52,016 nt of DNA from an uncultured Bacteroidales bacterium (GTDB lineage Bacteria > Bacteroidota > Bacteroidia > Bacteroidales > FEN-979): NCBI GenBank assembly GCA_903916595.1, contig CAIWXI010000141.1, positions 1 through 52,016 on the forward strand, in the 5' to 3' direction. This document shows, piece after piece, positions 32,437 through 43,246 of this stretch. Numbering within the stretch: position 1 is the stretch's first letter; each line of letters opens with the position of its first letter. Position numbers and translations under genes: made by a program. The notes below the pieces were generated by a model. That model did no database searches. It had not been told where the DNA came from and saw only the letters and a list, made by a program, of their open reading frames with translations.

Positions 32437-33000
32437 ATGAACGAAGAATTAGAGTTCACGCTCGAAGAAGCTGAAGAAGGCATGCAAAATGCCTTGCACC
32501 ATCTTGAAAAAGAGATACAGAAGCTACGTGCCGGGAAAGCAAGTCCGCAAATGCTTGATGGGGTCAAAATTGATTATTACGGTGTTATAACTTCCATTGA
32601 CCAGACCGCTAACATAAGCTCCCCTGATGCGCGTCAGATCATCGTTCAGCCATGGGATAAAAGCGTATTGAGCCTCATCGAAAAAGCAATCCAGGCAGCC
32701 AACCTGGGTTTCAACCCGAAAAATGAAGGGGAAATACTACGCATCGTTGTTCCGCCGCTTACCGAGGAACGCCGTCGCGACCTGGTTAAAAAAGCCAAAG
32801 CAGAAGCCGAAAATGCAAAGATCAGTATCCGCAACATCCGTCGTAATGCCAATGAAACAGCCAAACAGCTGAAAAAAGACGGCACTCCCGAAGACGAGGT
32901 TGAAAAGCTGGAAGTTGATATCCAAAAAATTACCGATGATTATATTACCAAAGTCGATAAGATCCTTGAGGTCAAGGAAAAGGATATCATGACCGTGTAA
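32437..33000 (+). CDS. frr: Ribosome recycling factor
   Basis: RRF, 187 residues, splits post-termination ribosomes together with EF-G. The N-terminal half carries HLEKEIQKLRAGKASPQML, and the C-terminus has the VPPLTEERRRDLVKKAK and SIRNIRRNANE segments that form the three-helix bundle. It is convergent with the Crp/Fnr-like gene, 11 bases from it. No hairpin terminator is visible in that short gap. Confidence 0.97.
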   Translation: MNEELEFTLEEAEEGMQNALHHLEKEIQKLRAGKASPQMLDGVKIDYYGVITSIDQTANISSPDARQIIVQPWDKSVLSLIEKAIQAANLGFNPKNEGEILRIVVPPLTEERRRDLVKKAKAEAENAKISIRNIRRNANETAKQLKKDGTPEDEVEKLEVDIQKITDDYITKVDKILEVKEKDIMTV

Positions 33001-33011
33001 ATCCTTATAGG

Positions 33012-33713
33012 CTAACCGTGCTTGCTTATCTTTTGCAGGCGTTCAGGATCATTAAGCAGTATTTTTTTTCCTTCCACCTTGATCAGGCCTTCGTTGTGAA
33101 ATTTCCTCAGGGTATGGATCACATTCTCTTTGGAACAACCTGCAAATTCTGCAAACTCCTGCCGCGACAGGGAAAGAACAAACTCGTTACTCATATAAAT
33201 ATTCTGGGAGAGAAAAAGAAGGATGTCTGCAATCCGGCCATTTACCTGCTTGTGGGCAAGGCTGATAAAGTTGAAGATTGAACTGCGGAAGACATCCGTG
33301 ATAAACTGTAGCATTTTGAACAAATACAAGGTGTTTCCCAAGGCGATCCGGGTCAAAATACCCACATCAATAGTACAACCTTCACAATCTTCAATGGCGC
33401 AGACCGAGAACAGGTTGAATTCGGCATTCACCAGGTTTGCACCTCCAATCAGAGCCGGGGCCTTATTGATGGAAAGAATGAGGTTCTTTCCGTTCTCATC
33501 CTCATAGTTAAATTTAATAATACCTTTTCTTAGGAAAAGGAAGTGGGTAGATTTGGCTCCCTGCTTTAAAATAACTTCCCCTTTTTTATACCGGAGCTGA
33601 ACCGATTTCGCACGGAGTTTCTCAAATTCCTCCTTTTGAATGTACTGGCAGCTGATTGTCTTGAAAAGACAATCTTCACAGTCAAAATAGCGCTGGTGAT
33701 TGATCTGGGTCAT
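33012..33713 (-). CDS. Crp/Fnr-family regulator with N-terminal cysteine cluster
   Basis: A 233-residue transcription factor with an N-terminal cyclic-nucleotide-like beta-roll and a C-terminal winged helix (LSRQEFAEFAGCSKENVIHTLRK region). The N-terminus has Cys12-x2-Cys15-x6-Cys22 and three more cysteines in CAIEDCEGC (105, 110, 113). FNR-type oxygen sensors hold a 4Fe-4S cluster with a C-x2-C-x5-C set plus a distal cysteine, so a redox or oxygen sensing role is plausible but unproven; spacing differs by one residue. The start at ATG 33713 fits a -7 element at 33727-33734; the ATG at 33746 lies upstream of it. It is divergent from the metal-cofactor-like operon. Confidence 0.8.
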   Translation of the reverse strand: MTQINHQRYFDCEDCLFKTISCQYIQKEEFEKLRAKSVQLRYKKGEVILKQGAKSTHFLFLRKGIIKFNYEDENGKNLILSINKAPALIGGANLVNAEFNLFSVCAIEDCEGCTIDVGILTRIALGNTLYLFKMLQFITDVFRSSIFNFISLAHKQVNGRIADILLFLSQNIYMSNEFVLSLSRQEFAEFAGCSKENVIHTLRKFHNEGLIKVEGKKILLNDPERLQKISKHG

Positions 33714-33726
33714 TCGATGTTTTTTA

Positions 33727-33755
33727 CAAAAGTAATGGGTTTTCATATATCAAAA
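33727..33755 (-). promoter_or_regulatory. Promoter of the Crp/Fnr-like gene with overlapping imperfect palindrome
   Basis: The minus strand reads TACTTTTG at 33734-33727 (TAnnTTTG), with TTTG at 33754-33751 (short 16-base spacer). The TTTTCATATATCAAAA imperfect palindrome at 33740-33755 lies in the spacer and could be an autoregulatory operator. Confidence 0.5.
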
Positions 33756-33847
33756 GGTGAAATAATACATCTTTTTAAATGTAACACATCAGGTAAAAGA
33801 AGACTTTCTTTCAGTGCTGTGTATAATATTGTGAATGAGCCCGCCTG

Positions 33848-33856
33848 TACCTTTGC
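33848..33856 (+). promoter_or_regulatory. -7 element for the ABC-GTPase-NifS-FeS operon
   Basis: TACCTTTGC fits TAnnTTTGC and lies 40 bases before the ATG at 33896. A TTG at 33829-33831 is a -33 candidate with a short spacer. Confidence 0.55.
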
Positions 33857-33895
33857 TGCTGAAAATTTCATTTACATTTTAATAAAACCTGATTC

Positions 33896-34699
33896 ATGGA
33901 AATTAGAACCATTGGCGTAATGGGGGGATGCGGAAAAACCGGTGAACCCGAAAAAGTTGAACGTTTTGAATTGAAAATGGGCGACATTATCAGTATCGTT
34001 GGCCCAACCGGTTGTGGGAAAACCACTCTGATCAATGATATTGAACTGTTCGCGAACCGAAATACTCCTTCAAACCGTCTTGTTTTAATTAACGGGGAAC
34101 CTATTTCCGACGACTTTACCTTTGATCCAAGGAAACATCCGATTGCCCTGATTTCGCAACACACGAATTTCCTTTCTGACCTTCCCGTGGGCGAATTCCT
34201 GAAGATACATTCTAAAGTAAGGGGTGGTGACAATCCTGAACGGCTGATTGGCGAAACCCTTGAATTTGCTAACCAGCTTACGGGCGAAGCCATCATAGTC
34301 ACTACTGGAATGACGGAACTTTCGGGAGGACAAACGCGCTCCTTGCTGATTGCCGACGCGGTGATCATCGGAAATTCACCGATTATCCTCCTGGATGAAA
34401 TCGAGAACGCCGGTATTCACAGGACCAAAGCTCTTGAACTGCTGAAACAGTATAACAAGATTTTTGTCTTCGTGACCCATGATCCGCATATCGCGCTGCT
34501 GTCGGACTTCAGGATCATCATGAGGAACGGGTCTATGGAAAAGCTTATCTGTACCAACCAGGAAGAGCGCAGAGTAGCCGGTAATCTTGGGAAAATTGAC
34601 AATCTGATGCTGAACTTCCGTGGCCTTATACGGAGCGGACAGGAAATCTCGGAACGCATGATGACTGAACAAATGGAAATATTGAACCAAACAACGTAA
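33896..34699 (+). CDS. Soluble ABC-type ATPase, metal-cofactor operon
   Basis: This 267-residue ABC ATPase has Walker A GPTGCGKTT (36-44), Q-loop Gln88, signature LSGGQ (142-146), Walker B ILLDEIEN with Asp167-Glu168, and H-loop His195. A second glycine-rich GGCGKTG near residues 10-16 looks like a degenerate P-loop copy. No permease gene accompanies it, so it resembles soluble cofactor-assembly ATPases (SufC, AtwA type) more than a transporter. It starts the four-gene operon and ends three bases before the GTPase gene. The specific partner is unknown. Confidence 0.78.
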   Translation: MEIRTIGVMGGCGKTGEPEKVERFELKMGDIISIVGPTGCGKTTLINDIELFANRNTPSNRLVLINGEPISDDFTFDPRKHPIALISQHTNFLSDLPVGEFLKIHSKVRGGDNPERLIGETLEFANQLTGEAIIVTTGMTELSGGQTRSLLIADAVIIGNSPIILLDEIENAGIHRTKALELLKQYNKIFVFVTHDPHIALLSDFRIIMRNGSMEKLICTNQEERRVAGNLGKIDNLMLNFRGLIRSGQEISERMMTEQMEILNQTT

Positions 34700-34702
34700 T
34701 AT

Positions 34703-35404
34703 ATGAAGCTTATAATATTTGCCGGTCCCCCCACCTGCGGGAAAACCACGGTCATCAGACAGGTCATCAGAAGAATGTTAAAAAAAGGACACAAACCCGC
34801 TTATCTGAAAATAGATGTGCTGTATGCCGATGAAGATAAGATCATCGGCGCGGAGTTCAATATACCGGCAAGAAAACTATATTCCGGTGAGCTCTGCCCC
34901 GACCACTGCAATGTAGTGGTGATGGATGAAGCTGTTGAATGGGCTGAGAAATCAGGCAGTGATTTTCTTTTTGTAGAAACAGCAGGATTATGTCTGCGCT
35001 GTTCGCCTTACATCGAGAATTCACTTGGTGTGGTTGTTTTGGAAGCAACGAGCGGTATGAATCTTCCGTATAAGATCGGGCCTATGCTTACCCTGGCCGA
35101 TATTGCCGTGATCACTAAGATCGACCTGATTTCCCAGGCCGAAAGGGAGGTGTTTCGTTATAGGGTCATTGAAGCCGCGAAGGAGATCACGGTTGTGGAA
35201 AGCAATGCATTGTACGGAATCGGCATCGATCCCATTATTAGACATATTGAAAGGTCCAGTGAGATCGAACAGCCCATGTTTTTGCGGGGGAACCCTCCTG
35301 TCGGGACCTGCACGATCTGCGTGGGCAAGAAAGAAATAGGGGCAAAGAACCATTTCGGGGTTTTGCGCACTTTGGAGCATGATCTGTTTTATATCGGTGA
35401 ATGA
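34703..35404 (+). CDS. HypB/UreG/CooC-like P-loop GTPase with metal-binding cysteines
   Basis: This 233-residue SIMIBI-class GTPase has a P-loop GPPTCGKTT (8-16), a switch-type VETAGLCLRC (91-100) and TKID (138-141) for guanine recognition. Several cysteines and a histidine look like metal ligands: Cys65, His68 and Cys69 in ELCPDHC, Cys97 and Cys100, and Cys203 and Cys206 in CTIC. HypB and UreG insert nickel and CooC serves CO dehydrogenase; this protein is similar in type but not clearly any of these. It overlaps the next gene by four bases (ATGA), strongly suggesting coupled translation. Confidence 0.78.
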   Translation: MKLIIFAGPPTCGKTTVIRQVIRRMLKKGHKPAYLKIDVLYADEDKIIGAEFNIPARKLYSGELCPDHCNVVVMDEAVEWAEKSGSDFLFVETAGLCLRCSPYIENSLGVVVLEATSGMNLPYKIGPMLTLADIAVITKIDLISQAEREVFRYRVIEAAKEITVVESNALYGIGIDPIIRHIERSSEIEQPMFLRGNPPVGTCTICVGKKEIGAKNHFGVLRTLEHDLFYIGE

Positions 35405-36579
35405 TGACTTTGATGACTGATCCCGGGCAGAGCATATATCTCGACAACGCGGCGACAACTCCTATAGATCCGCTGGTTTCCGATGCAATTCAGGCTGCAG
35501 GAAAGGAATACTATGGAAATGCTTCCAGCCTTCATTCTGTCGGGGCCCAGGCGCATGAGGTCCTCGAACAGTCAAGGGAAAGACTGGCGTCTCTGCTTGG
35601 CGCTATGCCATCGGAGATCGTTTTTACCGGCAGCGGAACAGAATCCAATAATCTGGCATTAAAAGGAGTCGCGTTTGCCAATGCACACAGAGGAAGGCAT
35701 ATCATCGTTTCAGCCATCGAACACGATTGCATATTAAGAGCAGCCAGATGGCTGGAGAGACAGGGCTTTTTCGTTACCTATCTGCCTGTAGATAACGAGG
35801 GCCTGATTGAAATGTCATCCCTTGAAAAGGCTATGACCGATAAAACCATTCTCGTTTCAATGATGCATGTCAATAACGAGATTGGGACCATAGAACCGGT
35901 TGAAGAGATTGGGAAATTATGCAGAAAGCGGAATGTATATTTCCATTCCGATGCCTGCCAGTCGTTTGGCAAAATCCCCTTGAATGTCGATAAAATGCAG
36001 GCGGGGCTGCTTACTGTGAATGCACATAAACTTCACGGGCCCAAAGGTGTCGGAGCATTATATATCAGATCGGGTGTGGCTGTTGAACCCTTGCTTCACG
36101 GGGGCGGACAGGAAAAAGGAATACGCTCATCCACCGAGAACATACCAGGAATCATCGGGTTTGTGAAGGCCGCCGAAATAGCATGCAGTCAAATGGAGTC
36201 GGAGATGAGGCGGGTCACTGAACTGAGGGAGCAGATCATCAGCAGGCTATATCAGGAAATTGAAGGAGTATATCTCAATGGTTCGCGTACATACAGAATT
36301 CCTCATAACATTAATTTCTGCATCGAAGGGATGGAAGGAGAGGGGATACGGCTGCAGCTGCTGCTCGATGATGCCGGGGTATGTGTCTCAACCGGTTCGG
36401 CCTGTTCGTCGAACGACGGGGGCAATCCTTCACACGTTCTCCAGGCCATCGGGCTTGATCCTTTTCAGGCAAGAGGAGGAATCAGGCTGAGTCTTGGGAG
36501 GTTTACCACGCGAAAACAAGTCGATGATTTCCTGACTATTATTACAGAAAAGGTGAAACAACTTAACCCCATTTTTTAA
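35401..36579 (+). CDS. NifS/IscS-type cysteine desulfurase
   Basis: This 392-residue class V aminotransferase-fold enzyme takes sulfur from cysteine for Fe-S or other sulfur-containing cofactors. PLP lysine Lys210 is in NAHKLHGPKG, with the SIEHDC-like HDC segment, SDACQSFGK, and the catalytic cysteine Cys335 in STGSACSSN. It differs from a housekeeping IscS mainly by its place in this operon, where it probably supplies sulfur to the ABC/GTPase/Fe-S-protein set. Its ATG overlaps the GTPase stop (ATGA). Confidence 0.88.
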   Translation: MMTLMTDPGQSIYLDNAATTPIDPLVSDAIQAAGKEYYGNASSLHSVGAQAHEVLEQSRERLASLLGAMPSEIVFTGSGTESNNLALKGVAFANAHRGRHIIVSAIEHDCILRAARWLERQGFFVTYLPVDNEGLIEMSSLEKAMTDKTILVSMMHVNNEIGTIEPVEEIGKLCRKRNVYFHSDACQSFGKIPLNVDKMQAGLLTVNAHKLHGPKGVGALYIRSGVAVEPLLHGGGQEKGIRSSTENIPGIIGFVKAAEIACSQMESEMRRVTELREQIISRLYQEIEGVYLNGSRTYRIPHNINFCIEGMEGEGIRLQLLLDDAGVCVSTGSACSSNDGGNPSHVLQAIGLDPFQARGGIRLSLGRFTTRKQVDDFLTIITEKVKQLNPIF

Positions 36580-36603
36580 ATACAAACAATTAAAACCATA
36601 GCT

Positions 36604-37293
36604 ATGTTCAAAGAAAGCAACCTTCAGTTAGATGTAGTTCAGACCCTTCCGGGCCTGGATTGCGGCGCTTGCGGATTCCGTACATGTACACTCTTTGGTG
36701 ACCACCTGGCAAGGACCCCCGACGACATCAAACTTTGTATCCATATCCAAAACAAAAAAAACCAGGTCTCAGATCCCGTGGCATGCCTCAGCTGTCACCA
36801 CACAGGCCTGGGAGAGAAACTTGGCTGGAAAGATAACCTCAAACGCGAATTTGATTTTGTGCTTGATTCATTTGACAATGAACCCGGCCCCAGGGAAACC
36901 ATTCTTCCTTATAACCCGGCCCTGGTGAAAGATCTGGGAGTGAAAAAGGATGATATCATGATAGGCCGCCCGATGGGGATGTCGTGCGGATGCCCGGTGA
37001 CTCATTGCGGCATTGTTACAAGTGTTGATGCCCGCAACGGTGTGATCAACTGGTGCGTTACCGGTCCGCTGAAGCCTCGTTTGCAAGGCTTTATTGATAT
37101 TGGATACTACGTGGCCCAGGGTTATGAAGGCCTCATCAAAGAGACCAATGTTGAGATCAAGCTGGGTTTACGTTATTGGTTCATGCCACGCCGCTGCATG
37201 CTGCAGTGGAGGCATAGCGGACTAGTAAACGCGGTTACAAAGCTAAAAGACGGAGGGTACAAAGTAAGGATCGAAGGTTTGTTTATTGGTTGA
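36604..37293 (+). CDS. Cysteine-rich Fe-S protein with N-terminal 4Fe-4S domain
   Basis: This 229-residue protein starts with a 4Fe-4S domain of the PF04060 kind: Cys20, Cys23, Cys28 and Cys45 in LDCGACGFRTC...C, as found in RnfB and the CO dehydrogenase/acetyl-CoA synthase system. Then come Cys61 and Cys64 (CLSC), Cys128, Cys130 and Cys135 (CGCPVTHC), Cys151 and Cys198. The C-terminal half is not assigned. It may be the scaffold or target of the preceding desulfurase, ATPase and GTPase. The stop codon TGA at 37291-37293 lies inside a 9-bp tandem repeat. Confidence 0.75.
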   Translation: MFKESNLQLDVVQTLPGLDCGACGFRTCTLFGDHLARTPDDIKLCIHIQNKKNQVSDPVACLSCHHTGLGEKLGWKDNLKREFDFVLDSFDNEPGPRETILPYNPALVKDLGVKKDDIMIGRPMGMSCGCPVTHCGIVTSVDARNGVINWCVTGPLKPRLQGFIDIGYYVAQGYEGLIKETNVEIKLGLRYWFMPRRCMLQWRHSGLVNAVTKLKDGGYKVRIEGLFIG

Positions 37294-37320
37294 TTGGGTT
37301 GATTGGGTTGATTCGGTTCG
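37288..37320. repeat. Nine-bp repeat GGTTGATTG over the Fe-S gene stop codon
   Basis: Three and a half units with a 9-bp period (GGTTGATTG twice, GGTTGATTC, then GGTTCG). The TGA of the Fe-S protein gene is inside the first unit. Confidence 0.88.
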
Positions 37321-37423
37321 CCCGGGATTGAAAATTTACAAAAAACGAAAGGTAAAAGCGCAAGTTTTTCCGTTTCCGGTTGTCAAATAAGAAAACCTAA
37401 TGTTAAACCAATAATTTTTGACG

Positions 37424-37846
37424 ATGAAAACGATGATCAGAAGAATCCTGCCTTTAGGCCTTTTACTAGTGTTTGCAGTGTATGGTTATTCCCAGAATAG
37501 CTCGACAGCTGCTGTTTCAAAAGAAACTCAAACTACCCAGACAGCCGCTTCATGCGGTAAATTTGTCGACAAGAATGCCGATGGCATTTGCGACAATCAC
37601 CAGAACAAAGCCCAGTGCAAGGGAAACGGTGATTGCTGTGGCAAAGGAATGCAGCATGGCAAGGGAAACTGCCAGGGTAAACAGATGCAGGACTGCAAAA
37701 AGAGCTGCAGCGGCGGTCATGCCAAAGCAGGCTGCGGAACAGCCAGTGCTGGTTGCGGCAAAGGCAATCCTACTCCGGGCAACTGCCCCAATAAAGGAAC
37801 CTCAGGTCAGGCTGCTCCTGATAAAACCACAACTCCATCTAAGTAA
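37424..37846 (+). CDS. Secreted cysteine-rich protein with an EF-hand-like loop
   Basis: This 140-residue protein has a signal peptide (about residues 1-24, ending YGYSQ). The mature part has 11 cysteines, a calcium-loop-like FVDKNADGICDNH and many Gly, Lys and His residues, for example CKGNGDCCGKGMQHGKG, suitable for binding metal ions. It is directly upstream of an ECF sigma factor, an anti-sigma factor and a Spy-like sensor, so it could be a periplasmic metal buffer or the output of that circuit (inference). The start is ATG 37424; an in-frame TTG at 37418 is less likely. A hairpin terminator follows. Confidence 0.72.
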   Translation: MKTMIRRILPLGLLLVFAVYGYSQNSSTAAVSKETQTTQTAASCGKFVDKNADGICDNHQNKAQCKGNGDCCGKGMQHGKGNCQGKQMQDCKKSCSGGHAKAGCGTASAGCGKGNPTPGNCPNKGTSGQAAPDKTTTPSK

Positions 37847-37860
37847 TACAGGCAATCTTT

Positions 37861-37896
37861 GGTCAGGCTGAATTTCATAAGAAATTTAGCCTGACC
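37861..37896 (+). terminator. Terminator-like hairpin between the cysteine-rich gene and the ECF sigma gene
   Basis: GGTCAGGCTGAATTTC (37861-37876) pairs with GAAATTTAGCCTGACC (37881-37896), a 16-bp stem with one G-U pair and loop ATAA, then a T-rich stretch. GACCTTTGC at the end of the hairpin is one base off a -7 element for the sigma factor. Confidence 0.8.
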
Positions 37897-37921
37897 TTTG
37901 CTTTATTATTACCACCAGCGA

Positions 37922-38500
37922 ATGACTGATGCCGAACTGATCTTGGGAATACTACGGCGTGACCGCCAGGCTTTTCAGTACCTTCTTGATACATATCAGA
38001 AACAGGTGGTCAAAACAGCGTACTATTTTACAGGGAATATGGAAGATGCAGAAGACCTTTCACAGGATATTTTCCTCGAGATCATAGCTTCGGCAGCCTC
38101 CTTCCGCCATTCGGCCAGCCTTTCGACCTGGATTTACCGGATCACCGTAAACCGTTCGCTCAACCAGATTAAGAAAAATAAACGCAGAGACATTTTTCAA
38201 CGACTGGGCACTTTGTTTCAGGTTAAGACCAACGGAAAACATGTTTCAATGGAACCCGCGGGTTATATAACAAATACAGAGGATGATGAAAGAAGGCAAC
38301 TTCTCAATCATGCCATCAATACCCTCCCCGAAAATCAAAGAATCGCCTTCGTGCTCTGCAAATACGAGGAACTGCCTTACAAGGAGATCTGTGAAGTGAT
38401 GAACCTGAGCCTGCCATCAGTCGAGTCGCTCATCCACCGTGCTAAAATAAATCTTCAGAATAAATTATCGGTTCACTTTCCCGAATTAAAAAAGAACTGA
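37922..38500 (+). CDS. ECF-type RNA polymerase sigma factor
   Basis: A 192-residue sigma factor. Region 2 runs from about residue 13 to 85 with AEDLSQDIFLEI and the DNA-opening segment, and region 4 from about 130 to 182 with LPYKEICEVMNLSLPSVESLIHR. Size and lack of regions 1 and 3 place it in the ECF group. The ATG at 37922 follows a TTG frame start at 37898 that lies in the terminator. The anti-sigma gene follows after two bases, so the two are translationally coupled, as is common. Confidence 0.88.
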   Translation: MTDAELILGILRRDRQAFQYLLDTYQKQVVKTAYYFTGNMEDAEDLSQDIFLEIIASAASFRHSASLSTWIYRITVNRSLNQIKKNKRRDIFQRLGTLFQVKTNGKHVSMEPAGYITNTEDDERRQLLNHAINTLPENQRIAFVLCKYEELPYKEICEVMNLSLPSVESLIHRAKINLQNKLSVHFPELKKN

Positions 38501-38502
38501 AC

Positions 38503-38949
38503 ATGGACTGCACTTTTATTAAAAACAACCTTTTCGCCCTGACCGAAAAACAGCTTCCGGCCACTGAACTGGCCCTTGCAAAAGAACATATTGCAGGATG
38601 CGCCGCCTGCTCTGTTTATGTTACTTCCTTCTCTTCAATCATGGAAGTAATTGAAAAAGACAGGAAAACCGAACCCAATCCTTTTCTGGCTACCAGGATA
38701 TTTCAGAAAATGGAATCTCAGGGAGCTGTGGCCAATCATAATATTTTTCTTCGTATACCGCGGGTACTTCAGCCAGCGATTGCCGTGGCGCTGATTCTGC
38801 TTGCAGTCCTTACCGGTTTTTTTGCCGGTAAGCAGGGTAAGCAGCTTAGCCAGGTTCCGGCATATGAAAAAAAATTAAATGAAATGAAAGCGCAAATGTT
38901 CATTTCAGAGCTGAACGACGAAGACAAAACAGTGGAATTGTACAAATAA
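38503..38949 (+). CDS. Anti-sigma factor with zinc-finger-like N-terminus
   Basis: This 148-residue membrane protein has a cytoplasmic zf-HC2-like domain (His29, Cys33 and Cys36 in HIAGCAAC, plus Cys3) that holds ECF sigma factors. One transmembrane helix spans about residues 90-108, followed by a short outside tail (about 40 residues). It should bind the sigma factor encoded just before it. The following Spy-like gene fits a sensor that releases it. Confidence 0.82.
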   Translation: MDCTFIKNNLFALTEKQLPATELALAKEHIAGCAACSVYVTSFSSIMEVIEKDRKTEPNPFLATRIFQKMESQGAVANHNIFLRIPRVLQPAIAVALILLAVLTGFFAGKQGKQLSQVPAYEKKLNEMKAQMFISELNDEDKTVELYK

Positions 38950-38958
38950 TATTTAGCT

Positions 38959-39501
38959 ATGAATTACTTTAACAAAAACCGGGTTGTTTTCTGGATCATG
39001 ATCCTGATGATCGTGATCAATATATCGGCCTTTACAAGCTTTTTCATTTATTACAGGCCAGGCAAACCAGTAGTTGCCGATACGCTAAGTTGCGGCGGGA
39101 GCTGCCGGTTCCTCAACGATCAGCTTTCTTTGAACACCGATCAGGCGGGTAAGGTTTCGGAAATAAATAAACAATTCAGGGATCAGTCTGAGCCTGTTGT
39201 TTTGGAGATAAAAAGCATCCGGACAGCTCTGCTTGCCGAACTGGCATCAGAAAAACCAGATACGGCCAGTCTCAACCGGTATACCGACCGTATCGGGGAG
39301 TTACAGAAAAAATTACAGAGGGCCGCGGTAGTGCAGTTCCAGCAACTTAAACAGGTATGTACACCTGACCAATGCCTGAAGCTGTCGGCAATCTACTCTG
39401 AACTTTATGGTTGTGAAAAAATGAATCAGGATAAGGGAATGCGCATGCAGCACAGGTTTGGAGGCGGGCAGGAGAATAAAGAATGCAAAAAAAATCGCTG
39501 A
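38959..39501 (+). CDS. Membrane-anchored Spy/CpxP/CnrX-like periplasmic sensor
   Basis: This 180-residue protein has an N-terminal transmembrane anchor (about residues 9-31) and an outside helical domain. Helices such as NDQLSLNTDQAGKVSEINKQF and the ELQKKLQRAAVVQFQQLKQ stretch resemble the heavy-metal-sensing Spy/CpxP/CnrX group. Cysteines 45, 49, 134, 139 and 152 (CGGSC, CTPDQC, YGC) could bind metal or form disulfides. It lies nine bases after the anti-sigma gene and is likely the sensor of a three-part sigma circuit. The inducer is unknown. Confidence 0.72.
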   Translation: MNYFNKNRVVFWIMILMIVINISAFTSFFIYYRPGKPVVADTLSCGGSCRFLNDQLSLNTDQAGKVSEINKQFRDQSEPVVLEIKSIRTALLAELASEKPDTASLNRYTDRIGELQKKLQRAAVVQFQQLKQVCTPDQCLKLSAIYSELYGCEKMNQDKGMRMQHRFGGGQENKECKKNR

Positions 39502-39533
39502 CCAGACCTAACAAATTATTCAGTTCGATTAGT

Positions 39534-39542
39534 TACTTTTGC
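39534..39542 (+). promoter_or_regulatory. -7 element for the beta-propeller-like T9SS gene
   Basis: TACTTTTGC matches TAnnTTTGC, 21 bases before the ATG at 39564. No clear -33 is seen. Confidence 0.6.
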
Positions 39543-39563
39543 AGCCGCCCTTAACCGTCTCTC

Positions 39564-40889
39564 ATGAAATCAGGATTTTCTTTATTTATTATTTCAGTTT
39601 GTTCTTTTACCCTGGTCTCCATTCATGCCCCGGCCCGGTCATCAGGATTTGTAAAGCAGGTTCTGATTGCCAACTCGGGGAAGTTTGAATATACGCCTCC
39701 ATACAATGATTTTGTTACACTTCAGTCGTATAATCCGCAGATTGAACAGGTATATTATTTCAATACAATTTTTACCCAGTCGGTACAATCTATTCTGATC
39801 TGCGGGCATGTCGCTTTTATCGCAGCCCAGGATTCCATCGTTAAATACAACCTGAATACCCTTCAGCGAATGGCGGCCGTTGCTGATTCGGGTTTGAACC
39901 GCATGGCCGTCTACAACGGAAAACTGCTCGTTTCAAAGCAATATCCGGTGAGCCGGTATTTTCTTGAAGTTCTCGACACGGCAAACCTTGGCCTTATTGC
40001 CCGGGTAAGTGGCCTTTCAGGTGATTGCGGGGGTATCTGTGCAATAAATGATACTGTTTATGTCGCCGTAAACGGCGGATGGATGGGAACCGATGGCAAA
40101 CTTGCCATCATTGATCCCATGTCGTGGATCCTACAGACAGAAGTGAACTTTGGCCCTGTCGCTATAGGTATATGGGACCTGTATGTTCATAACGGCAGTA
40201 TCTTTTCGGTGAACAAGTCGCCGTATGGAGTCATTGACGCCGGCAGCGTCACTGCATTTAACCCCTTGAACCGCGGTTTTACAAACGTTTTAATTCCGGC
40301 GAGGGTTGCTGCCGGCTCAGGCATTAAAGACGACCTTCTTTACCTTGGCATAAACTACGGCATAGGTTCTTTTAACATGAACACTCTGGCCATGGTTAAC
40401 CCCCAAATAGTTCGGGATCCGGGTTCTTCAGTATTCAATTATATTCTCTCTTCGGCGGTTGATACTTCAGACAACAGAATTTATACCAACATAGGCGATT
40501 ACGCAACACCAGGATACTGCCTGGTGACTTCACTCAATGGTGATTCACTTACTTCCTTTCCTACAGGGATTTCGTCAGATGCAGTAGCTGTTGATGCACG
40601 CGCTTATCCGGTGGGCATCACCGACAATTCTGCTATGGATCGGTCGGTAAGACTGTATCCGAATCCGGTTCATGACAAGCTTAGGGTCAGTCTCTCATCA
40701 AATGTCACGGTCACATCGGTAAAGATCATTGATGTGAGCGGAAGAGTATTGATTAACCTGAAAGGGGGAACTATATCAGGTTCTGACTTTGAAGTAGAAG
40801 TGAGCTCATTGAACCCGGGCCTGTACTATCTTGCAATTGAGACCAGCGGGGCAAGGATCGTCAGGTCGTTTGCAGTTGCAGCGCCCTAA
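39564..40889 (+). CDS. Secreted beta-propeller-like protein with T9SS sorting domain
   Basis: This 441-residue exported protein has a signal peptide of about 25 residues and repeated blade-like segments (VKYNLNTLQRM, LAIIDPMSW, VTAFNPLNRG, GSFNMNTLAMV) that resemble YncE/DUF5074 beta-propellers. A C-terminal sorting domain starts near VRLYPNPVHDK (about residue 370). Propellers of this sort bind ligands or proteins at the cell surface. It overlaps the convergent GH20 gene by four bases. Confidence 0.78.
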   Translation: MKSGFSLFIISVCSFTLVSIHAPARSSGFVKQVLIANSGKFEYTPPYNDFVTLQSYNPQIEQVYYFNTIFTQSVQSILICGHVAFIAAQDSIVKYNLNTLQRMAAVADSGLNRMAVYNGKLLVSKQYPVSRYFLEVLDTANLGLIARVSGLSGDCGGICAINDTVYVAVNGGWMGTDGKLAIIDPMSWILQTEVNFGPVAIGIWDLYVHNGSIFSVNKSPYGVIDAGSVTAFNPLNRGFTNVLIPARVAAGSGIKDDLLYLGINYGIGSFNMNTLAMVNPQIVRDPGSSVFNYILSSAVDTSDNRIYTNIGDYATPGYCLVTSLNGDSLTSFPTGISSDAVAVDARAYPVGITDNSAMDRSVRLYPNPVHDKLRVSLSSNVTVTSVKIIDVSGRVLINLKGGTISGSDFEVEVSSLNPGLYYLAIETSGARIVRSFAVAAP

Positions 40890-43246
40890 TAAACCACGAT
40901 TTCATCTGCAAAAATCCAGCTGGGCTGTCCTGCCCCTTCATGCCAGGCTGGGCATACACCATAATTTTTCGCCGTAACTTTAAGATATCTAGCCGGTGTG
41001 GACGGGAAAGGCTGTATAAAAGGCTGAATAAACACCTGTTCCTCCTTTGGAGATACCGTATTCAGAACCTGGTTCACTGAATGCCATTTCTTACCATCAG
41101 ACGATAGTGAACATTCAACGTATTTCGGAAGAAAGATCCAGGCCTTTTGGTTTTGCAGCATAGTAAGCATAACGGAGGTCACCGGGGTCTCTTTTCCGAA
41201 GTCAATAATAATATCAATGTCATTGCCAAGATACCCCTGCCACAATCCGTCGTGGTGATCTGTGCTGCCTCTGAGGCCGTCGATCAGGGCGGTTTCACCT
41301 CCTGCAGGGTATCTTTCAGACCAATTGGTTTTATATGCGATCTTTTTACCGACGCCAAGATGGTGCAGAAAACTCCGTTCAATGACCTTCTCTTTCAGCT
41401 CCCCGTTAACAAACAACCCGGCCTTAATAACAGCATTACCACTAACTTCAAAAGGATCTGTATATACTGCGGATTTCATGTTGGGCTCATTCCCGTTAAG
41501 CGTATAATAAATAGGAATGCCGGGTTGTTCAGATGATAAAATGAACTTCACCATGCCTGTTTTATGATCGGGCAGGGTATTGATATCAGCCTTGAATGAG
41601 CCTCGTGAATAATTTATTTTCAAGTAGTCAAGCTTCTTTAAATGTGGGTTGAGCCTGATCCTGAACTCACTGAAATTCCGCTTTGCCTTTGGAGACCAGT
41701 CCACTTCGGCCAGCGCTATCATCCTGGGCAGAGCCATGTACTGAGCCTGGCTTACAGTAGGGATGAATTCGGTCCAAACATTCCCCTGGGCCCCGAGGAT
41801 GTGTTTTTGTTCTTCTGAATTAAGTTCTTGCGGAACAGGTTCGTAAGAGTATACTTTTTTGAGGGTAAGGAACCCGCCTATGGCTTTTGGCTCTGTAGCA
41901 GGATTTGCCTGGTAACGATCAAAATAGCAATAATCGCCGGGCGTCATAATGGCATCGTGGCCCTGCCTTGCTGCAGCAATCCCGCCTTCCACCCCACGCC
42001 ACGACATCACGGTTGCTTCGGGAGCGATACCTCCGTCGAGGATTTCATCCCAGCCAATCATCCTGCGATCCTTTGAGAGAATGAACTTCTCGATGCGTTT
42101 CACGAAATAACTCTGAAGCTCATTTTCGTCTTTCAGTCCTTCGGCTTTGATACGGGCCTGGCACTTAGTGCAGGCTTTCCAGTTCGTTTTATCGGCCTCG
42201 TCACCGCCAATATGAATGTATTTAGAAGGGAACAGAGCCATGACCTCGGTAAGTACATCCTGCAGAAAAGTAAAGACCGAATCATTGCCGGCGCAGAGAA
42301 TATCAGTATTGGGCCAGTATGACCCGGGAGGCACCGTTACCAGATTGCCTTTGCATGATAAGTGAGGATAAGCAGCGAGTACCTCAACCGAATGGGCGGG
42401 CATTTCAATTTCAGGGATAATTGTCACATACTGACGGGCCGCGTAATTAACAATCTCTTTTATCTCATCCTGGGTGTAGAAACCGCCGTAAGTTGCAGTT
42501 TCACCTGGCTTCTGAGGTTCACGTTTGTTCCACGGATCATTCTCGCGGTCAACATGCCATGCCCCTATGCTTGTAAGCTTCGGATATTTTTTAATCTCGA
42601 TCCGCCATCCATTGTCATCGGTAAGATGCCAGTGAAACACATTCATCTTGTACATGGCGATCAGGTCGATGTATTGTTTGATGAATTCCTTGGGGAAGAA
42701 GTGGCGGGATACGTCGAGATGCATACCCCGGTATGGAAACCTGGGATAGTCTCTGATCTCGATGCAGGGAACCAGATACTGAAGATTTGCCGTGCCGGTA
42801 TTCGCTGTGTAGACCTCAGGAGGGAGAAGCTGTATGAGGCTCTGAAGCCCGTAAAAAAGACCGGCCCCCTTGCTTGCTTCAATCATAATCCTTTGAGGGG
42901 TGATGTTCATGACATAACCTTCGGGCGGGAGATTCCCCTTCGTGCTAAGTTTAAAAAAAACCGCGTTAGAAACCGGTTTGATGTCTTTAGGCGCATCGGC
43001 CAGCTTTATGCCTTTCAAGCCTGCATTTTCGAGCAGGCTCACCAGCATCCCAGCAGTGATCGCGGCTTCAGAATCAACCGATTCAACATAAACGGCGGTC
43101 TTCCCGTTGATCCCGAACCACCCCGTTTTGAGTTTTAATGATACAGGTTTGGGGATGATGTTGATCTCAGATTGTGTTAGCGCTGATGCATGATTGCACC
43201 ACAGTATACCAACAAGGGTAAGAAGAGCGAGCGATCTTTTTAGCAT
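40886..43246 (-). CDS. Beta-N-acetylhexosaminidase, GH20
   Basis: This 786-residue exported glycosidase removes terminal GlcNAc or GalNAc. After a signal peptide (about residues 1-22) comes a GH20b domain (to about 165), the catalytic barrel with HWHLTDDNGW (205-214) and the acid/base pair Asp349-Glu350 in HIGGDEADK, then a C-terminal region with strands typical of an F5/8-type (discoidin) carbohydrate-binding domain. The start is ATG 43246; the frame extends to a TTG at 43276 without gain. It is co-transcribed with the upstream kinase-like gene, which could phosphorylate the released N-acetylhexosamine. Confidence 0.92.
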   Translation of the reverse strand: MLKRSLALLTLVGILWCNHASALTQSEINIIPKPVSLKLKTGWFGINGKTAVYVESVDSEAAITAGMLVSLLENAGLKGIKLADAPKDIKPVSNAVFFKLSTKGNLPPEGYVMNITPQRIMIEASKGAGLFYGLQSLIQLLPPEVYTANTGTANLQYLVPCIEIRDYPRFPYRGMHLDVSRHFFPKEFIKQYIDLIAMYKMNVFHWHLTDDNGWRIEIKKYPKLTSIGAWHVDRENDPWNKREPQKPGETATYGGFYTQDEIKEIVNYAARQYVTIIPEIEMPAHSVEVLAAYPHLSCKGNLVTVPPGSYWPNTDILCAGNDSVFTFLQDVLTEVMALFPSKYIHIGGDEADKTNWKACTKCQARIKAEGLKDENELQSYFVKRIEKFILSKDRRMIGWDEILDGGIAPEATVMSWRGVEGGIAAARQGHDAIMTPGDYCYFDRYQANPATEPKAIGGFLTLKKVYSYEPVPQELNSEEQKHILGAQGNVWTEFIPTVSQAQYMALPRMIALAEVDWSPKAKRNFSEFRIRLNPHLKKLDYLKINYSRGSFKADINTLPDHKTGMVKFILSSEQPGIPIYYTLNGNEPNMKSAVYTDPFEVSGNAVIKAGLFVNGELKEKVIERSFLHHLGVGKKIAYKTNWSERYPAGGETALIDGLRGSTDHHDGLWQGYLGNDIDIIIDFGKETPVTSVMLTMLQNQKAWIFLPKYVECSLSSDGKKWHSVNQVLNTVSPKEEQVFIQPFIQPFPSTPARYLKVTAKNYGVCPAWHEGAGQPSWIFADEIVVY

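Follow-up and report, generated by a model that had tools for sequence, protein, structure and literature searches.

A CnrYXH-like ECF sigma factor module carrying a gene for a cysteine-rich, putatively exported protein in an uncultured Bacteroidales bacterium

Among described systems, the locus reported here most resembles CnrYXH/NccYXH, the cobalt- and nickel-sensing systems of Cupriavidus, with which it has in common an ECF sigma factor, a membrane anti-sigma factor and, adjacent to them, a periplasmic sensor that is anchored in the membrane and has the same fold. The fold and the LTxxQ-like motifs of the sensor are also found in ZraP, Spy and CpxP; these are soluble periplasmic proteins, whereas the sensor of this module has a membrane-type N-terminal helix and is encoded together with a sigma/anti-sigma pair. 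A further comparison is offered by the bacterial metallothioneins, which are small and Cys-rich. The additional protein of the locus (referred to below as CYS) is likewise small and rich in cysteine, and no fold is confidently predicted for it without a ligand, but it differs from the metallothioneins in having a predicted signal peptide and an EF-hand-like loop and in showing no Pfam similarity at threshold. The mechanism of CnrYXH is treated in PMC7689651, and other ECF systems of the Bacteroidota in PMC9723704 and PMC9308784. No description of a trio consisting of sigma factor, anti-sigma factor and Metal_resist protein was found in the literature searched, which had few subscription papers. 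Although the CnrYXH-like layout is known, CYS, the promoter and a conserved thiol in the sensor make the present module a variant of it. In comparison with CnrYXH, the mapped metal ligands of CnrX are absent and a conserved Cys is found in their place, the anti-sigma factor mostly starts with an H-x3-C-x2-C motif that we take to be ZAS-like, the operon contains no efflux pump, and an apparently exported Cys-rich protein has been added behind the module promoter.

Layout and surroundings of the module

The window, by which we mean the whole stretch of 52,016 nucleotides that was analysed (contig CAIWXI010000141.1 of assembly GCA_903916595.1), contains at positions 37424–39501 four open reading frames in tight succession, encoding CYS, the ECF sigma factor, the anti-sigma factor and the sensor (Table 1). 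A first-pass annotation made from the sequence had grouped these genes into one set, and all four are indeed present and close-packed on a single strand.

Table 1. Positions in the window of the module genes and associated sequence features
Feature	Position	Strand	Remarks
Promoter-like element, ECF-type, GCAAGTTTT-N13-GTCAAA	37360..37387	+	36 bp 5' of CYS start codon
CYS, Cys-rich protein of 140 aa with 11 Cys, putatively exported	37424..37846	+	no confident AlphaFold2 fold
EF-hand-like 12-residue loop DKNADGICDNHQ	37568..37603	+	CYS residues 49-60
CYS–sigma intergenic hairpin, T-rich tail	37861..37896	+	probable partial terminator
ECF sigma factor (SIG)	37922..38500	+	Pfam, NCBIfam, starts of relatives
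Anti-sigma factor (ASF), H-x3-C-x2-C N-terminus, one hydrophobic segment	38503..38949	+	Pfam, NCBIfam, alignment
Sensor (SEN), membrane-anchored, periplasmic, Metal_resist / CnrX-ZraP-Spy fold	38959..39501	+	Pfam, model, profile
Sensor Cys134 codon, second LTxxQ-like motif	39358..39360	+	alignment of sensors

The sigma factor matches Sigma70_r2 and r4_2 and scores above the cut-off of TIGR02937, which identifies it as a member of the ECF group. Its start at 37922 is more likely than a TTG at 37898, because its relatives begin with MT[DE]..EL. The anti-sigma factor has a zf-HC2 score of 18.8 bits, below the gathering score of 22.2 (E 0.0018), and contains the H-x3-C-x2-C motif, which was observed in 17 of 21 aligned sequences; as the other four are without that N-terminus, the protein is best conserved at EPNPFxxTR and in its membrane segment.

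Directly 3' of the module, at 39564–40889, the window encodes a T9SS-sorted secreted protein (with a type IX sorting tail). On the other side, at 33896–37293, genes for an ABC-type ATPase, a CobW/HypB-like GTPase, a NifS-like cysteine desulfurase and a 4Fe-4S protein follow each other in series, divergent from a Crp/Fnr regulator; this row of genes adjoins the module in the same-genus genome G002 as well and also, up to the limit of the contig, in G001. Both neighbours were considered as parts of the operon and rejected, since they rarely recur while the four genes stay together: among 28 module loci the T9SS-sorted protein is a neighbour in just three (elsewhere only in two same-genus genomes), Fe-S proteins are found in three and NifS/class V proteins in eight. 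A search of Rfam across window positions 33000–40900 gave no match.

Association of CYS with the sigma factor, its promoter-like element and a hairpin

Relatives of the sensor were detected in 55 of 100 genomes (E up to 0.001) and those of CYS in 32 of 100 (E up to 0.01), with the genome of the window included in both counts. The first-pass annotation held that its proposal would fall if the Cys-rich gene were unlinked to the sigma module elsewhere. In the family to which the window belongs the linkage is kept: CYS lies directly 5' of sigma in 32 of the 34 modules for which sequence upstream of sigma was available, the surroundings of these modules differ, and the order CYS-sigma-anti-sigma-sensor is recurrent. 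The 32 include L078, although its sigma reading frame was called too long; the two family modules without CYS are those of G033:C164 and G014. The count leaves aside three loci where the contig stops before sigma (L259, L260 and L268), a relic (L120), a decayed module (L123), and a distant paralogous module without CYS in the window's own genome (L132).

Elsewhere in the order, outside this family, CYS was observed in one of 10 modules (G088). When GTDB genomes were scanned using the alignment of sigma factors, 548 sigma relatives were found; in the best 80 of these, which come from Bacteroidota, Ignavibacteria, Chlorobi, KSB1 and a small number of other groups, a sensor relative is located downstream in 77 loci and CYS is present in 11, family members included. 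Judging from these sequences, the sigma/anti-sigma/sensor trio without CYS is widespread in the Bacteroidota and their relatives.

Upstream of CYS, all 24 of the CYS loci inspected contain the element GCAAGTTTT-N13-GTCWAW, which we assume to be an ECF promoter; it is exact in 23 of them, has a mismatch in one, and is placed 27–40 bp before the ATG. The copy listed in Table 1 is the sole site with up to two mismatches in the window. As the pattern was derived from the CYS loci themselves, its independent test is a search for sites across genomes. In 61 genomes (the window's own included) 46 exact sites were found, as against 7 for a reversed-pattern control, and 32 of the 46 are associated with a module, counting that of G027 where CYS stands alone on its contig. 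An additional 15 genomes have 19 exact sites, of which 16 match a module in position. This co-occurrence suggests that the element is used by the sigma factor of the module.

At loci without CYS the element lies about 45–90 bp 5' of sigma, and a second copy is often found between the genes for sigma and anti-sigma. Of the best 80 loci of the GTDB scan, 35 possess the element upstream, either exact or with a single mismatch (the distant site of L162 excluded); among the 80, the 11 with CYS have it 505–594 bp 5' of the sigma match, ahead of CYS. Because the element precedes sigma where CYS is absent and CYS where it is present, CYS was apparently inserted between promoter and sigma, mainly in one Bacteroidales family. 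L153 retains CYS together with a second promoter site. In L150–L152, L154–L158, L160 and L161, which have no CYS, the promoter occurs twice (up to two mismatches), before sigma and between sigma and anti-sigma.

The other 14 of the 46 exact sites are away from a module. Five mark decayed or vanished modules (G000:C31, G004, G007, G017:C54 and G028:C77, those of G004 and G007 judged from their neighbourhood), one precedes a solitary CYS (G028:C231), and two (G005 and G006) are 114 bp ahead of a DUF2202 gene. The G000:C31 site belongs to a decayed second module of the window's own genome (L113, 7656–7989), in which an exact promoter and a sigma fragment lie beside an SQR-like gene and no CYS, anti-sigma or sensor was seen. 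An exact site without a clear gene behind it is also present in this genome (L114, 7245 of G000:C166), and a site much like it precedes a DUF2202 lipoprotein-like gene in two relatives. Five other sites were found in G012, G028:C231 (a second site), G029:C34, G033:C164 (a divergent site) and G047. Those of G012 and G029 precede small Cys-containing proteins, presumably HYC-like, of which that of G029 has no NCBIfam match; single sites of this kind may be due to chance, as the control pattern gave seven sites in the same 61 genomes. DUF2202 was considered as a regular target of the sigma factor and could be retained only in part. The gene was found in 6 of the 27 genomes of the family; in three (G016, G022 and G025) it is no more than about 5 kb from a module, and the copy in the window's genome has no promoter site within three mismatches upstream; no paper on DUF2202 was found in the literature searched.

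Between CYS and sigma the window can form a hairpin of 16 pairs, followed by TTTGCTTTAT, with a z of -6.6 relative to shuffled sequences, shuffling being the only control used. The 85 bases 3' of CYS have a z below -2 in 18 of 26 CYS loci, with stem sequences that are unrelated, and in 11 of these 18 the next nine bases contain five or more T. The value of -2 is not reached in the remaining eight (L064, L075, L076, L079, L044, L051, L124 and L078). The hairpin is probably a partial terminator, making CYS the main product, with read-through into sigma presumed. Since the promoter-like element is located just before CYS and the hairpin after it, CYS is the head gene and the probable main output of what would be a self-regulated circuit.

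The CYS protein and the sensor

The N-terminal signal of CYS ends, as judged by eye, in YSQ, the Gln of which is invariant in 23 aligned sequences (the window's included), and the protein is thus predicted to be exported. The signal is followed by a Thr/Gln/Ala linker, the loop listed in Table 1 and a Cys/Gly/Lys-rich tail. The number of cysteines in the relatives varies from 4 to 13. In the same 23 sequences Asp49 and Cys56 of the loop are invariant, Gly54 and Asp57 are present in at least 90%, and two such loops were seen by eye in 17, often together with a tail of the GNCCGxGxQHRHG type. The first-pass annotation had described the loop as EF-hand-like. The 12-residue pattern is present, but none of the EF-hand models scores above threshold against the 23 proteins: with E up to 1, EF-hand_5 matches four (best 0.17), EF-hand_1 two (best 0.028) and EF-hand_6 one, and the window's own CYS matches none. 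Hence, EF-hand-like should be understood as a statement at the level of a motif. No Pfam or NCBIfam family matches CYS up to E 0.1, its AlphaFold2 model is unusable (pLDDT 44), and the only relative of solved structure is one sequence with E 0.84; the protein is probably disordered.

The sensor exceeds the threshold for PF13801 (Metal_resist; 31.2 bits against a gathering threshold of 29.2, E 2.6e-7). In its AlphaFold2 model (mean pLDDT 77, pTM 0.55) a membrane-type N-terminal helix is followed by a helical hairpin domain. The best Foldseek rows for this model are ZraP, STV and CnrX, with CpxP and NccX lower, at a probability of 1.0 yet with E values of only 0.017 and up, and in VIA-align ZraP (Z 11.6) and CnrX (9.5–10.8) appear amid unrelated helical rows at Z of about 10. 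A profile of 35 diverse sensors searched against the PDB gave STV (2.6e-9), Spy (1.1e-7), ZraP (9.8e-7), NccX (1.9e-6) and CnrX (3e-5), and this sequence profile is a firmer basis than the structure match for the kinship of the sensor with CnrX, NccX, ZraP and Spy.

The metal ligands of CnrX (His42, His46, Glu63, His119 and Met123) were mapped through the HMMER alignment with NccX. HVFEM of NccX aligns with QFQQL of the window, so that the positions of CnrX His119 and Met123 are occupied by Gln126 and Leu130, and His42, His46 and Glu63 fall on Cys49, Asn53 and Asn70. By this alignment the window's sensor retains no mapped ligand, while column 126 is a His in 44 of the 68 sensors from other families. 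According to PMC7689651, signalling by CnrX needs Met123, and its change to Cys abolishes the nickel response.

All 27 sensors of an alignment comprising 26 from the window's family and the one from G088 have Cys134, as do 56 of the 68 others. After residue 45, each of the 27 has two to six cysteines; among the 68, one is present in 50, none in eight and at least two in 10, of which one (L153) has CYS and nine do not. The sensor of G033:C164, which is among the 27, has at least two cysteines, yet no CYS gene accompanies it. Extra cysteines in the sensor and CYS thus appear mostly to go together. The first-pass annotation had noted that the sensor has cysteines of its own, and this is borne out; as for the resemblance it saw to the CnrYXH and ZraP type, the layout and the fold agree, whereas the metal chemistry does not, the mapped CnrX ligands being lost and Cys134 nearly invariant.

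A possible circuit and the signal to which it responds

On the basis of the gene order, the conserved promoter-like element, the hairpin, the sensor family and the conserved Cys, all of which are observed, we infer the pairing of sigma and promoter, a release step, termination and feedback, as well as export of CYS, its binding of metal and the choice of metal. We consider it somewhat probable that the module is a self-regulated envelope-stress circuit with an exported Cys-rich output, in which the stress is thiophilic and most likely due to a soft metal. At rest, the ECF sigma factor would be held by the membrane anti-sigma factor. The periplasmic sensor of CnrX/Spy fold would respond through thiol chemistry, at Cys134 and the clade-specific cysteines, to a thiophilic stress such as Cu(I), and the freed sigma factor would then transcribe from the promoter-like element. 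CYS would be made first and exported by means of its signal peptide to the outside of the inner membrane, where this Cys-rich and probably disordered protein would bind the metal. The DxNxDGxCD loop may serve to hold Ca2+ or to assist folding of the protein. The hairpin 3' of CYS would stop a share of the transcripts and, as we propose, much CYS would therefore be produced with little new sigma, anti-sigma and sensor. Once the stressor was bound by CYS, the circuit would be turned off. The analysis thereby names a promoter, a target and a sensor residue as candidates for a trio that occurs across the Bacteroidota, Chlorobi and Ignavibacteria. If the proposed circuit is correct, it illustrates how a CnrX-like sensor can exchange His/Met for thiol chemistry and be coupled to a Cys-rich protein that acts as an exported sponge.

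That the signal is copper or another soft metal is a guess; we place metal first, and thiol or sulfur stress, its main rival, second. The first-pass annotation had proposed copper or zinc as the metal, either of which may be correct. A soft metal is favoured by the sensor family, the abundance of cysteines and the distant loop proteins described below. Metal-efflux genes were found neither within the operon nor following any of the three exact promoter sites in the window's genome. The lack of one in the operon speaks against the proposed circuit, as do the missing CnrX ligands, the variable number of cysteines in CYS, the sulfur/thiol genes next to many modules, the sensors that have two or more cysteines but no CYS, and the eight loci in which the hairpin is not significant. 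The link with copper rests on distant proteins that mainly share the loop motif. A search of the phylum for loop proteins gave matches in 21 of 395 genomes, the window's own included, and the 19 other loci (L280–L298) encode small, exported-looking proteins with one to several FVDxDGDGICD copies of the CYS loop, often before an uncharacterised outer-membrane-like protein. In contrast to CYS, these proteins mostly have fewer cysteines, adjoin an outer-membrane-like protein or copper genes, and are not preceded by the module promoter within two mismatches. Genes of copper or heavy-metal type adjoin four of the 19 loci by family scan, viz. a copper-resistance multicopper oxidase above the cut-off of TIGR01480 with a response regulator below cut-offs (L297), a Cu-oxidase_3 protein (L295), a heavy-metal-type kinase with a score below cut-off (L287), and a Cu-ATPase-like start below cut-off together with an LTXXQ protein (L290). 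Three more (L291, L293 and L294) have copper-like neighbours by likeness and not by scan, and many of the remaining 12 adjoin the uncharacterised outer-membrane-like protein.

It is possible, though rather unlikely, that the module is instead a reactive-sulfur or thiol-redox circuit, in which Cys134 would undergo oxidation or persulfidation on exposure to sulfide, polysulfide or oxidants, with CYS acting as an exported thiol buffer or sulfur trap. The conserved Cys of the sensor in place of the CnrX metal site is in keeping with this, and sulfur/thiol genes (NifS or class-V desulfurase, CysK, DsrC, DsrE2, SQR-like, TauE, thioredoxin, thioredoxin reductase, QmoC and ArsF/G) were found in 18 of 28 module loci, all 52 kb being used for the window, whereas 3 of the 20 control stretches (20 kb each, same family) have them. 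However, this excess is biased toward the modules, because the query families were picked from the module loci, and several of the loci have inherited gene order in common. Further, the promoter was seen before such a gene only once (the thioredoxin of G004, at a site without module genes), and the sensor family and some of the distant loop proteins point to metals.

An unlikely, more particular possibility is that the module is a thiol-sensing relative of CnrYXH, placed among sulfur-metabolism genes, with CYS as both the main product and the feedback ligand, an exported, extracytoplasmic metallothionein-like buffer competing with the sensor cysteines at an output ratio set by the hairpin. If this were true, soft-metal and sulfide chemistry would meet in these bacteria.

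It appears quite unlikely that the circuit serves general envelope stress or misfolding in the manner of Spy/CpxP, with CYS binding clients or lying at the surface and its cysteines being of no particular significance. Spy and CpxP do have the fold of the sensor, and in some modules (such as that of G014, without CYS, and L155, L156 and L167–L169) a second sensor-like protein follows it, but the Cys-rich CYS and the extra sensor cysteines mostly co-occur, and CYS, unlike Spy, has no confident fold. Although CYS is absent from most modules outside the family, as indicated by both surveys above, members of the family keep it next to sigma in varied surroundings and behind a common promoter, which makes it extremely improbable that CYS is a chance neighbour unrelated to the sigma module.

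In one of the 32 linked modules (L077, 9959–10321 of G022:C54), CYS is apparently frameshifted in its second loop, and the rest of the module is seemingly intact.
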